A DNA stretch of 43,059 nucleotides, taken from the IMG/VR virus record IMGVR_UViG_3300036944_000646, positions 1 through 43,059 of that record. One strand, 5' to 3'. This document shows, piece after piece, positions 2,015 to 36,982 of this stretch. The first letter of the stretch is position 1; the number at the start of each line of letters is the position of its first letter. The notes under the pieces were generated by a model, which was not told the DNA's origin, searched no databases, and was given only the letters and a program-made list of their open reading frames with translations. The stretch comes from a virus. The translations under genes and the position numbers were made by a program.

Positions 2015-5000
2015 TATCTAGGACTATTAAGGTGTTTACTACTAGTAATTTTCAATATCATTTTTTTATTACTACTCACGTTCTTGCGTAATAATATTTT
2101 ATTTCCATAATGTCTTATTTTTTTATGCTGCGTAGGACTTTTAAAGTAATCTACATATAGTGGATTAATAGTTTTATTATATCCGTCATTTGCAGTAATC
2201 CACATTGGAATAGTAGAACCAGTAAACTCACCTCTATCAGCAGTAATATCATAAAACTGATTGAATCTAAATTTATTTTCTTCTTTGCTGTATAAGATAT
2301 CTATACCACCTGCGTTAGGAATTGGGTAATTCAAAAGTTGTAATGGTTGATTCTTAGGTTTAATGTTTAATAACAACAAACCTGAAATCTGCTCAGAATT
2401 GTAAATAATAGCTCTATCAAAATTTTCGTCTAAGATATGATTAAAATCTCTACCTTCATTATAATACACATATGTATCTAATGTATACTCTACATTACGT
2501 AATGTTGTAACAGTGTTTGCTGTAGTTACAGGATATTCAATTTCCCATGGAAAATTAAAACCATAAAAATTAGAAAATAAATCAGTTCTTACATTATGTC
2601 TCCATAGTTTACTAACAGTGTAACTTGGATTTTTTGTTTTAGTATATTCGTAATTACAAATCAAAGGATCTGTGTTAATATACCCAGGTGTACCAGCTAA
2701 TACAAGATCGTCACATTCTCCAACTGTTGTTGTTTCTGTATCAGGTTCACATACTTCAGGACATGCACATTCAACTTTTTTACAAATAGGCGGATTTAAT
2801 GGATCGCATTCTCCAATTAAAGTGTATCCTTCAGGACATGTACACGTTGGTGGTGCTAAACAAATATTTCCTGCAACAGCATTTGCTACAAAAGCTGTTG
2901 TGTTAGTTGGAGAAGTACCATCAGCAACTACAATAAACTGGTTTGCTGTTACACTACAAGTAATTGCATTTAATAATGCTGATGCACCACCTGGTAAAGT
3001 AGGACTAGATGGATCACAAAATATAGAATACACTTCTGCATTTGTCAAACCTTGTAAAACACATCCTACAGCTGTACTACCTGTACCACAATCAGAAGGA
3101 TCTCCTCCTGTGTTATTTGCAGTTGCATCTGTCATAAATAACATTACAGATTTAAACGACGGATTTGCAGATCTATCACCAAGTTCTGAACCAGCTCTGT
3201 CAGCTAAAACAGCACTTGCTCCTGCAAACCCAGAACAAATATTTGTACCATTTGCTGATGCTGGACTATAATAAGTTGCTACAGCAGCAGGTGTTACTGT
3301 ATTACTCATAGAAAACCCTAAAGGTTGCATTGAACTAATGTGATTACTTGACCATCTTGTAAAACCTACTTGAATATCTCCTGAAGCCATTCCACTTGAA
3401 ATTGCAGGTGAGTTTAAAAAATCTTGGACAAACTGTCTTTGAGCTTCAATTCTAAATCCTGTTTCTGTACTACCAGAAACATCCATTGCAATAACAATAT
3501 CCAATAAACAAGCAACTGGGTTTGGTGTTATAGTTGATTGAACTTGAGATATAGTAACATCTGCAGGTTGAGAACTTGTAACTACTTTTGTACATAACTG
3601 AGTTACTGTATCAAATGTATACCCAACTGGACATACAGGTGTAGTAGTATCTTCACGTTTAACAGTAAGGAAGTGATTGTATGATGGAATCATCCACTCA
3701 GGATGCCAGTCATGAAAACTTATCCATGCTTTAATTTTAGGATCATAACTAATAGTCCAACTAACTTCTTGTAGCAAACCTTTAATATCAATTGGTGTTA
3801 ATACAGGTTTAATAATAGGATTGAAATATGTTACACAACTACAAGTAGCAGCTTCAGTATCTAATATGCATGGATTAAAACAATCTACAGGTGCAACATC
3901 AGTATCTCCTTCACACATGTTACTTTCTGCATTATATGTATAACCAGGAGGACATATGTCATTTTGAACTAATCTTTCACATCTTAAACTTTCAGTATTG
4001 TATGAATAACCAACTGGACAACTTATAATAGCAGGAACTTCGTTATATGCAGTTTCATTTAAATAAAATCCTTCACCTTCAACATATACTAAATAATCTT
4101 TTATATCTAAAAATCCAGGAGTAGGTTTATAATCTTTTTTGCTAAAATATAATATTTCAAACTGTGAATCAAATATTGCTTGACAAGATATACCTTCAAG
4201 TACATTATCATATAATGGAAAATCAGGATATACTTCTAACAATGGAGATGGTAAATTTTTAAGGAACCAGTGTTTCATACCATCATGTGATATTTCATTA
4301 ATACTGCTTCCATTAAAAGAACATATCTTACCTGTTTGCTGTGATATCCAAAATAAACCGTAAGGTGTATTTACAACACCTCTGTTAGAAATACTTGTAC
4401 CATAAGCAAACGCATCATCTGCATTTACAATTGATTGCATGTTTTGTTGAAATAATCCTGCATCACCTACAGTGTATTTTACACCAGCAGCACTTTGAAA
4501 AGTATCTACACCAACAAATTGCATTGGTTCAATGTCTTCAAAAAGTATTAAAGACCCTTGTGCATTTAATGATTTAATTGTAGATATCTTTCCTTCAAAA
4601 TCTCTGTAATTAAACTGTAAGAAATTTCTCCAGTTGTCACGTTTAAGACCTGATTGTTGTTGTAATGAATAAACTACTTTATATGGATAGTGTTCAAAAC
4701 ATGTTGAGTAAATAGTAGGATCGTAATCTCTTGGAAGTATGTTACCCCATGATTTAAAATTACTATATATTTTAGAAGCACTTAATGATAAGTCATACTT
4801 GTAATATACAGGTCTTTTAATTAAGTCACTTCTAAACATTAAAGATACATCTGTAAATGAGTTACCTACAGGATCATAAAATTTTTCCCAAACATCTTCA
4901 CCATAATCTCTAAATGCAACATTTAATTCTGACTCTGTAAAAAAGTCACGAACACCATTTGCAAATAAATACATCCACGCATTTATAAAACTTGTTTTTA

Positions 5001-33969: not shown

Positions 33970-34278
33970 TTATTTATTTATTTGGTTAATAATAGACTGT
34001 TCTTCTTCTTCTGTAACTTCAGCTTTCCAAAAATCTTTAGGGCAAGATGATGAAAGTGATCTTGTTTTAAACTTTAAAGAACAACCACACTCTGAACAAC
34101 AGGGTTGTGTCCCTGGCACAGCACAATTTTTACCTATGTGATCAATATGCTCACATAAAATACAAATTTGATTTCTATAAAATGCAATATCCTCAACATC
34201 TTTTGTTTTAAAGATATTGTTTTTGATACCCTCCGCAATTTTATTGCGGTCCTTCCAAATCCTGATTAAGTTTCCCAT
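33970..34278 (-). CDS. Zinc-ribbon-like protein, 102 aa
   Basis: Cys-rich core ICILCEHIDHIGKNCAVPG, then PCCSECGCSLKFKTRS and SSSCPKDFW, giving at least two CxxC knuckles and a CGC turn, suitable for one or two zinc ions. The gene begins inside the end of the IHF-like gene (38-nt overlap), implying coupled translation. I recall such CCxxCGCxLxxKtRs proteins as conserved in crAss-like phages. Function unknown; nucleic-acid binding is likely. Confidence 0.6.
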   Translation of the reverse strand: MGNLIRIWKDRNKIAEGIKNNIFKTKDVEDIAFYRNQICILCEHIDHIGKNCAVPGTQPCCSECGCSLKFKTRSLSSSCPKDFWKAEVTEEEEQSIINQINK

Positions 34279-34654
34279 CTCTATATTCTTGTTTTTTTAT
34301 GATTACTAGTTCTTTTCTATCTGCTTCTTGCTGCATTAATTCTTGCAGTTTTATAAGTTGCTCAATATCAGTACGTCTCTGAATTATCATTTCATATGTC
34401 TGAACAGATATGTCTTCATCTTTTTCAATCTTAGCAACAAACCTCTGACTCATTTGCAACTTCTCAGCTAAAGATTTTTTCTTAACTACAAAAGTACCAA
34501 GTCTTGGTACAATAACTGAATGATGCTCTATCGAAGAAAGCTTTTTTTGTAGAGTTTGGTAGAAGTACGATACAACGTCATCTACTAACTCAGTAGGTAA
34601 ATTTAACTGCTCTGCAGTCATATCTACTATATGTTTTCTTTTAAGTGGATTCAA
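34241..34654 (-). CDS. IHF/HU-like DNA-bending protein, 137 aa
   Basis: The N-terminal 65 residues follow the HU/IHF pattern: helices MNPLKRKHIVDMTAEQLNLP and VSYFYQTLQKKLS, then the beta turn VPRLGTFVVKKKS equivalent to the G-F rule of HU proteins. The C-terminal extension is charged coiled coil (QLIKLQELMQQEADRKELV). Members of this family are a signature of crAss-like phages and probably bend phage DNA for packaging or gene control. It overlaps both neighbours (14 and 38 nt). Confidence 0.75.
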   Translation of the reverse strand: MNPLKRKHIVDMTAEQLNLPTELVDDVVSYFYQTLQKKLSSIEHHSVIVPRLGTFVVKKKSLAEKLQMSQRFVAKIEKDEDISVQTYEMIIQRRTDIEQLIKLQELMQQEADRKELVIIKKQEYRDGKLNQDLEGPQ

Positions 34655-35062: not shown

Positions 35063-35091
35063 TTGTACGATTTTGTACGGAATACCGTACA
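35063..35091 (-). repeat. TTGTACG direct and inverted repeats upstream of a DNA-binding gene
   Basis: TTGTACG occurs at 35063-35069 and 35073-35079. The second copy extends to TGTACGG and pairs with CCGTACA at 35085-35091 across a 5-nt centre. The spacing of 10 bp (one helical turn) between direct copies suits a protein-binding site. The palindrome also makes a hairpin just past the tmRNA 3' end, so it could instead help tmRNA 3' processing; no U-tract follows. Confidence 0.5.
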
Positions 35092-35096
35092 TTTTG

Positions 35097-35422
35097 TGGA
35101 GGTGGGGGGAGTCGAACCCCCGTCCAAACCATGATCAATAATACAATTTATACAGCTTAATTGGGGTCAAGCTTACTTGACGATTCCACCACTCTATTTA
35201 ATCTAATAGAGAAATCTTTTGAATCTAGGCTGCTAAACCAACTACTACATCCTCATTTAATAATGAGAATACTTTGTTCATATTAGCTTCTACTTGTGCG
35301 TTTGCTCCTAGAGCTACTACACCATTTGTGTTATTGCCATTTAATAAATTCACCTTAGTTTACAGTTATCTCTCTGGCTGATTGTATTACTTACTAATGA
35401 CCTGTCAAAACCAGTCACCCCC
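35097..35422 (-). ncRNA. ssrA: Phage-encoded tmRNA (ssrA) with an unusually long tag
   Basis: Both ends match tmRNA closely. The 5' end GGGGGTGACTGG TTTTGACAGG (35422 downward) pairs over 7 bp, with one G-U, with the 3' CACCTCC (35104-35098), followed by discriminator A. The T arm is GGGGG-TTCGACT-CCCCC. CCA is not encoded (ACAAAA follows). The tag frame lies at 35305-35228 with stop TAG at 35227-35225. With resume codon GCA it encodes 26 residues, starting ANAQVEANMN and ending EDVVVGLAA. GGA one codon earlier is an alternative resume site. The terminal LAA matches the protease-recognised end of bacterial tags, but the length is well above the usual 8-15. It rescues stalled ribosomes by trans-translation; in a phage it may sustain translation late in infection or redirect tagged peptides. 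Confidence 0.92.
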
Positions 35423-35676: not shown

Positions 35677-35746
35677 TTATCAGGACACGACTCGAACGTG
35701 TAACTACTCGGATAGACCTACGTTTTACCAGTTAAACTACCTGACT
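35677..35746 (-). tRNA. Degenerate tRNA or tRNA-like element
   Basis: In minus sense the sequence has a D arm GTTT-AACTGGTA-AAAC with the canonical GG, a T arm ACACG-TTCGAGT-CGTGT with a standard T loop, and an acceptor GTCAGG/CCTGAT (6 bp, last pair G-U, with an A-A at 1-72). Between D and T arms there are only 20 nt instead of about 22-23, and no proper 5-bp anticodon stem with a 7-nt loop can be drawn, so no anticodon is assigned. Either a pseudogene with a small deletion in the anticodon arm or a tRNA-mimic RNA near the tmRNA. Confidence 0.55.
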
Positions 35747-36694: not shown

Positions 36695-36982
36695 TTACCA
36701 GATAATTGCAACATCACCTTCACTGATAATCAAGTAAAGGACTTTATCGATGTCAATAATTTCTGCTTGTTGTATGCCATAGGTTGGTACATATACCTTA
36801 TCACCAGCTTTCACTTCTTCAACATCATCACCAACAGCAAACACTTCAAGTGCTGTCCATTGTTTCATGTTTTCAGCTTCTAAAGCTGCTTTGGTTTCTG
36901 CACTAAGTTCAATTGAACTTTCTTTCAGTACGGGTTTGATAAGTAAAATTCTTCTACCGCGTAACTTTTTAAATAATTCCAT
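36695..36982 (-). CDS. GroES-like co-chaperonin (T4 gp31-type role), 95 aa
   Basis: The N terminus RRILLIKPV, then EVFAVGDDVEEVKAGDKVYV and the closing YLIISEGDVAIIW follow the Cpn10 beta-barrel pattern. The segment between about 17 and 42 would be the mobile loop, here Glu/Ala-rich. Phage co-chaperonins replace or modify host GroES so that GroEL can fold the capsid protein, as shown for T4 gp31. Its place at the head of the structural operon fits. It starts on the base where the coiled-coil gene stops. The 99-nt gap 36596-36694 holds no supported gene; a weak tRNA-like fold there was not convincing. Confidence 0.78.
   Translation of the reverse strand: MELFKKLRGRRILLIKPVLKESSIELSAETKAALEAENMKQWTALEVFAVGDDVEEVKAGDKVYVPTYGIQQAEIIDIDKVLYLIISEGDVAIIW

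Follow-up and report, generated by a model that had tools for sequence, protein, structure and literature searches.

A phage-encoded tmRNA with a long predicted tag and an internal tag motif conserved among Bacteroidota phages

We analysed a 43,059-base viral fragment (below, the window) that carries, at positions 35097-35422 of its minus strand, a gene for a transfer-messenger RNA (tmRNA, ssrA). Its tag reading frame most likely specifies 37 residues, GNNTNGVVALGANAQVEANMNKVFSLLNEDVVVGLAA, and contains a motif, QxxANMxxVxx(L/I)(L/I), that recurs in the tmRNAs of many related phages. Comparison with these relatives shows, at the level of sequence, the identity of the tmRNA, the frame of its tag, the conservation of the tag and its restriction to phages. 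We consider it fairly probable that the gene specifies a functional one-piece tmRNA that adds a phage-specific degron, combining a ClpX-type end with a helix that docks to a host factor.

An earlier note on this DNA, made without database searches, had described a complete phage-encoded tmRNA whose tRNA-like ends pair and whose T arm is canonical, and both points were borne out. ARAGORN called a single tmRNA in the window (35096-35422, minus strand; tag ANAQVEANMNKVFSLLNEDVVVGLAA followed by a stop), and the Rfam model RF00023 matched the same strand at 35094-35422 over its full length (1-374) with 95.3 bits (gathering score 47; E 4.6e-36). The pairs of the acceptor stem, helix H2 and the T arm covary among 25 related phage tmRNAs. 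The element is thus confirmed as a genuine tmRNA, and a chance match is excluded. The third acceptor pair (3-347) is G-U in 25 of 25 aligned relatives, and G3:U is present in 55 of 56 distinct complete phage tmRNAs; a G-U pair at this position is an alanine identity element. The gene does not encode CCA (the 3' end reads ..CUCCA-CAA), so that CCA would have to be added by the host. The region of the first pseudoknot (PK1) is nearly invariant across phages, with one putative stem visible. The parts of the gene are as follows.

35097-35422, minus strand: tmRNA (ssrA) gene body, from acceptor stem to discriminator A, followed by CAA (ARAGORN, RF00023, covariation in 25 relatives)
35416-35422, minus strand: 5' strand of the acceptor stem, GGGGGUG, pairing with 35098-35104 and including the alanine-type G-U at the third position (alignment of relatives)
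35377-35404, minus strand: 5' strand of helix H2, approximate (RNAalifold, double changes)
35349-35376, minus strand: PK1 region, CCAGAGAGAUAACUG..AACUAAGGUGAA, with a stem CAG/CUG seen (RF00023 alignment)
35339-35343, minus strand: resume signal UAAAU, immediately 5' of the resume codon, with A at -4 (same as the host signal UAAAN before GGC)
35228-35338, minus strand: tag frame of 37 codons, GNNTNGVVALGANAQVEANMNKVFSLLNEDVVVGLAA (in frame with the motif in relatives)
35258-35296, minus strand: codons of the conserved motif QVEANMNKVFSLL, tag residues 15-27 (conservation across distinct motif sequences)
35250-35268, minus strand: RNA hairpin over the tag codons FSLLNE, in an H5-like position (RNAalifold pairs 163-181, some compensatory changes)
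35225-35227, minus strand: tag stop TAG (sequence, ARAGORN)
35185-35216, minus strand: 32-nucleotide RNA element GAUUUC-N4-UUAGAUUAAA-N4'-GUGGUGGA, just 3' of the tag stop (covariation; cmsearch 62.4 bits)
35166-35181, minus strand: second hairpin GUCAAG-UAAG-CUUGAC after the element (sequence; other bases in relatives)
35124-35156, minus strand: 3' strand of helix H2, approximate (RNAalifold, double changes)
35105-35121, minus strand: T arm GGGGG-UUCGACU-CCCCC (RF00023 alignment; 3 of 5 stem pairs covary)
35098-35104, minus strand: 3' strand of the acceptor stem, CACCUCC, followed by the discriminator A at 35097 (RF00023, covariation)

The E. coli resume codon, 12 nucleotides 3' of PK1, is determined by a signal of five bases in which the A at -4 is almost invariant (PMC2481249). 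Bacteroidota host tmRNAs use UAAAN directly followed by GGC at this site. The corresponding UAAAU-GGC of the window lies upstream of the ARAGORN tag in the same frame, and the tag is accordingly read as the 37-codon sequence listed above, with GGC at 35338-35336 as the likeliest resume codon. The earlier note had the tag start at GCA or GGA, giving 26-27 residues, and this start is replaced by the upstream GGC; its description of the other end of the tag, EDVVVGLAA followed by a TAG stop, holds as given. Relatives were gathered in two ways, with a tag-motif pattern and with a PK1-region pattern that is independent of the tag; the data are metagenomic contigs, in which clonal redundancy was lowered solely through counts of distinct sequences. 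The resume signal was found 10-13 nucleotides after PK1 in all phage relatives, and the ANM motif is in frame with the resume site in 89 of 90 distinct tags, even though the distance between the two takes nine values (5, 6, 8, 9, 10, 12, 13, 14 and 17 codons). There was not one stop among the 838 codons 5' of the motif, against 50.9 +/- 6.4 in shuffled sequences and 78 and 33 when the two alternative frames are read. Tags of the 90 distinct relatives (83 distinct peptides) are 24-49 residues long, with a median of 35. ARAGORN puts the start at different places even in close relatives, giving 18 residues for L003 and L113 but 31 for L107; for tmRNAs of this class, automatic calls yield tags that are too short.

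The full motif QxxANMxxVxx(L/I)(L/I) is shared by 89 of the 90 distinct tags. Its residues Q, A, N and M are present in all 71 distinct motif sequences and V in 70 of them, with two L/I positions after it; the pattern occurs once in the window and in none of the shuffled windows. In the close clade, the ratio of nonsynonymous to synonymous differences (pN/pS; pairwise Nei-Gojobori proportions, uncorrected for phylogeny) over residues 13-28 was 0.25, compared with 0.72 and 1.43 in the shifted frames; across all families the ratio was 0.42, compared with 0.84 and 1.08. The C-terminus is V, L, I or M followed by AA in 71 of 83 distinct peptides (VAA in 43), and the LAA of the window fits the ClpX-type pattern of a hydrophobic residue plus Ala-Ala. 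AlphaFold2 predicted a helix over tag residues 10-36, with a predicted local distance difference test score (pLDDT) of ~85 for residues 11-30; its amphipathicity is weak (shuffle p 0.10) and is not used as evidence. Together these comparisons indicate that the tag peptide is under selection across phages. The suggestion in the earlier note that the tag holds a functional element thus gains support from conservation at the codon level, although the conserved unit is the QxxANM motif and not MNKVFSLLNE, the unit it had named. Its other suggestions, altered kinetics of proteolysis and compensation for a shut-down host ssrA, stay conjectural. A mini-gene starting at the ATG of the motif was ruled out, as the preceding Q, A and N are equally invariant. 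Some tags (L141, L157, L166, L273, L300-L307) look like mosaics in which N-terminal or C-terminal pieces, such as VVHNILNGGTEVKSND and LLGDDTQEEASYE, recur in varied combinations in different phages, which suggests recombination within the tag. One relative (L288:2430-2793, minus strand) has a 49-residue tag frame that lacks the motif, possibly a decayed or a different tag.

Among the tmRNAs searched, only those of phages carry the motif. In agreement with the earlier note, which had taken host tags to be short, ARAGORN read tags of 8-19 residues at ~70 Bacteroidota host loci, where only two fall outside 8-10 and most are 9-10, in a sample that favours high-scoring tmRNA genes; a flavobacterial-type tag is typically GENNYALAA. 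No motif-bearing bacterial tmRNA was found with a DNA pattern in 84,980 genomes (18 scattered matches, none of them in a tmRNA), and a tag profile run against 296 Bacteroidota genomes gave partial, non-significant matches only (best E 0.013). Likewise, tblastn over 50,697 phage records did not find the motif outside tmRNA loci, the nine phage records searched for it in other proteins had it in tmRNA loci only, and nothing significant was obtained for it in PDB and Pfam. The annotated phages with the motif comprise 29 Flavobacterium and 7 Cellulophaga records. One of these, Cellulophaga phage Calle_1 (Pervagoviridae), has no counterpart of the head genes that Flavobacterium phage Fpv1, Cellulophaga phage phi14:2 and the window have in common, and since it carries the motif nevertheless, the tag module occurs across phage families. 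Its presence in phages with and without shared head genes means that the motif is likely tied to host biology, and its recurrence in many Bacteroidota viruses, unrelated ones included, that it probably does a specific job. Selection on the tag across phage families, together with its absence from the tested hosts, implies that the tag itself matters, and not ribosome release alone. In some phages, the same core is combined with a short tag (GNTYRIAA). The commonest tag length in a 2025 survey, which covered RefSeq viruses only, was 10 residues (PMC11915505).

The core of the phage tmRNA is compact: 128 nucleotides separate the stop from the 3' end, against 225-292 in Bacteroidota hosts. The usual pseudoknots PK2-PK4 between tag and H2 are absent, and the 32-nucleotide hairpin element and the second hairpin stand in their place. 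A missing pseudoknot core between tag and T arm, which the earlier note had named as grounds for rejecting the tmRNA, was therefore found in part. It does not refute function, because PK2-PK4 are dispensable for tagging in E. coli (PMC3968760); two-piece tmRNAs also have fewer pseudoknots (PMC3968760). The stem of the element is 99.6% paired, with 78 doubly changed cells (40 distinct sequences), a level reached by 0 of 500 shuffles. As the flanking bases were fixed by the search pattern, only this stem counts as independent evidence. The element is present in 105 viral contigs, mostly inside tmRNAs, and ~20 copies are found close to or at a protein gene's stop codon, ahead of a terminator-like hairpin. 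Loci with the element include L347:1368, L344, L348, L355, L359, L364 and L370, and in Lactococcus phages the element lies between tRNA-Arg and the tmRNA (L088:3001-3032). Compared with Rfam it gave no family at a meaningful score, and in bacterial genomes there were weak matches only, the top one reaching 29 bits where the window has 62. Two further pairings were considered. The element's UGGUGGA looks complementary to UCCACCA, the mature 3' end, but such a pairing was not adopted because the element also occurs outside tmRNAs, and a pseudoknot between the AGAUUA loop and a downstream AAUC was rejected as it is not kept in relatives. Tentatively, and with less confidence than for the window itself, we suggest a class of Bacteroidota-phage tmRNAs in which a peptide module would recruit a specific host factor and alter the fate of stalled proteins, and in which the core would be a mobile RNA element that also serves at the 3' ends of genes.

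In the mechanism that we propose, a host enzyme would charge the phage tmRNA with alanine and host SmpB would deliver it to stalled ribosomes; the use of host SmpB is suggested because no SmpB was found in nine phage records. Translation would resume at GGC (35338), so that the nascent chain gains Ala plus the 37-residue tag and ends at TAG. The C-terminal VGLAA would then act as a ClpX-type degron read by ClpXP, and the invariant helix QxxANMxxVxx(L/I)(L/I) may provide a second docking site for a host factor, the likeliest being a protease or an adaptor. The phage would thereby keep ribosome rescue going and redirect the fate of tagged peptides. We infer expression, tagging and degradation from the features described above, and the host-factor receptor for the tag helix is a guess. 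There are precedents for its elements: E. coli ClpX binds a terminal LAA (PMC3968760), RseA, which ends in GVAA, is a ClpXP substrate (PMC8138137), SspB binds to the N-terminal half of the tag in E. coli, and in Mesoplasma florum a divergent tag is matched to Lon (PMC8138137). The cultured motif-bearing phages (Fpv1, Calle_1, phi38:1, phi14:2) make a direct search for the receptor possible, with the tag as bait.

Some observations weigh against this proposal. The close relatives G299 and G300 (112-120 kb) are devoid of a tmRNA, and the gene is therefore a dispensable accessory. No protein was found that is common to tag-bearing phages yet absent from tmRNA-less relatives, as would be expected of a phage-encoded receptor, and the receptor is for this reason more likely a host protein. 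Residues 1-6 of the tag show no purifying selection in the close clade (pN/pS 1.0), so that the case for their translation is made by spacing and by the lack of stops. This last point would fit a tag that starts at GCA (26 residues, as called by ARAGORN) behind an untranslated spacer, and the UAGGA just 5' of GCA likewise places A at -4, with U before it at -5. We regard such a start as very unlikely nonetheless, as it leaves unexplained a canonical flavobacterial resume signal that is always in frame and lies 10-13 nucleotides after PK1, and an upstream region free of stops where 51 would be expected, and as it relies on a call that is inconsistent among close relatives. Conservation of the tag codons may, moreover, be partly at the RNA level, through the weak hairpin over FSLLNE. 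That RNA structure, in the form of this H5-like hairpin, and not the peptide, keeps the tag codons is nevertheless a reading to which we give very little credence: RNAalifold does place the hairpin over these codons, and the third positions of the Q, A and F codons are nearly fixed in the close set, but nonsynonymous change is depleted in the true frame only, families that differ in spacing and flanks retain Q, A, N and M, and the codons from Q15 to V23 lie mostly outside the hairpin.

Other explanations accept the frame and differ on its use. The tag might be non-degradative, its helix marking, protecting or relocating chains, or the tag might, by taking the place of the host tag, spare phage proteins rapid turnover by ClpXP. 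A tag that is phage-restricted and devoid of the host NYALAA end, with VAA ends dominating, would be in keeping with this; we judge it unlikely in view of the (V/L/I/M)AA end kept in most peptides and of the recognition of LAA and GVAA ends in the ClpXP precedents cited above (PMC3968760; PMC8138137). The RNA might also be a decoy, inhibiting host trans-translation by titrating SmpB or alanyl-tRNA synthetase of the host; this has a precedent in the tRNA-like-only RNA of mycobacteriophage DS6A (PMC4131195, PMC11915505) and would agree with the lack of SmpB in the nine phage records. A decoy has no need of a tag, however, and here the frame is open and under purifying selection, which makes this explanation very unlikely. 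Least credible of all is that a host tmRNA was acquired by recombination and persists as a neutral, unused relic. Although phages do carry tmRNA genes, and these genes commonly serve as integration sites (PMC9004378, PMC11590407), the tag, the core length and PK2-PK4 differ from those of host genes, and covariation and codon conservation extend over many contigs. We therefore retain the phage-specific degron as the favoured reading.

In the public phage records viewed, most motif-bearing tmRNA genes carry no annotation. Among the cultured-phage records viewed, only that of Calle has a tmRNA annotation, and it is given without a tag. In Fpv1 (L002:3001-3415), FpV4, their relatives, phi38:1 and phi14:2 (L084, L085) the tmRNA is unannotated or overlaid by hypothetical-protein calls, and in Calle_1 (L083; record 43002-43361) the GenBank tmRNA is placed ~50 bases downstream of the Rfam match (3053-3412 versus 3001-3362). 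Phage cr128_1 (L086:2700-3400) has an unannotated tmRNA-like start with a short tag (GNTYRAAA by eye) and the same core element; next to it lies a group I intron (RF00028, 86 bits), which overlaps an endonuclease gene on the other strand. This tmRNA is probably split by the intron, and intron-split tmRNAs are known in bacteria (PMC11915505). In cr10_1 (L087) a Hatchet ribozyme, a RAGATH-9 RNA and a permuted-tmRNA match lie within 2.6 kb (660-786, 1639-1817 and 2987-3250).

The phage itself is, judged by its proteins, a divergent relative of the Crassvirales: the terminase is ~25% identical to those of cr55_1, cr1_1 and other crAss-like phages over ~90% of its length, and the portal and major-head proteins match PHROG families for these functions and are shared with Fpv1 and phi14:2. 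Its host is probably a flavobacterium, because the resume signal and the 5' end match flavobacterial-type tmRNAs and in view of the hosts of its relatives. The tmRNA gene is flanked by PhoH upstream and an exonuclease downstream. Two small proteins are just under Pfam cut-offs (window 36695-36982 and 34241-34654, minus strand): near PhoH, one approaches that of Cpn10 (18.0 versus 21.1 bits) and one that of the bacterial DNA-binding protein HU (21.8 versus 22.4 bits). A tRNA-like sequence at 35677-35746 (minus strand; RF00005, 34.8 bits, cut-off 29) was not called by ARAGORN and seems to have a malformed anticodon arm; at the equivalent position, a normal tRNA-Met is present in two relatives (L003:4666, L005:4728). 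A perfect hairpin, TGTACGG-TATT-CCGTACA, adjoins the tmRNA end at 35074-35091, with T's following on the plus strand only.

Compared with known systems, the phage RNA resembles the flavobacterial one-piece tmRNA (RF00023) in its G3-U tRNA-like ends, H2, PK1 region, UAAAU-GGC resume site, AA tag end and in-frame stop. It differs in its tag, which has 37 residues and an invariant internal motif where the flavobacterial one has 9-10 residues, in the replacement of PK2-PK4 by the compact element, in its shorter stretch from stop to 3' end (128 versus 225-292 nucleotides) and in the lack of an encoded CCA. It shares the 5' half, the resume site and a long QxxANM tag with the tmRNAs of the Fpv1 group (Fipvunavirus; Fpv1 tag GNTNNSVVSLEDNAQVEANMNMAFSLIREDVAVAA), of Calle_1 and phi38:1 (Pervagoviridae) and of phi14:2 (Steigviridae); the Fpv1 and Cellulophaga phage tmRNAs have longer cores, and the Pervagoviridae tag ends in VGV. 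The long, Lon-read tag of Mycoplasma and Mesoplasma florum is a known parallel, from which the phage tags differ in keeping a ClpX-type (V/L/I/M)AA end. As a phage-encoded ssrA it joins those of the mycobacteriophages Bxz1/Wildcat, Bacillus phage G, and Streptomyces and Pelagibacter/OM43 phages; marine phage tmRNAs are often two-piece (PMC9004378), and the Streptomyces phage tags are short (DNSNVAFALAA, ANSKFAFALAA), unlike that of the window. Finally, like the tRNA-like-only tmRNA of DS6A, it is a phage RNA able, as predicted, to engage the trans-translation machinery; the DS6A RNA has no tag frame and inhibits tmRNA, whereas the frame in the window is complete, with 37 codons, and conserved.
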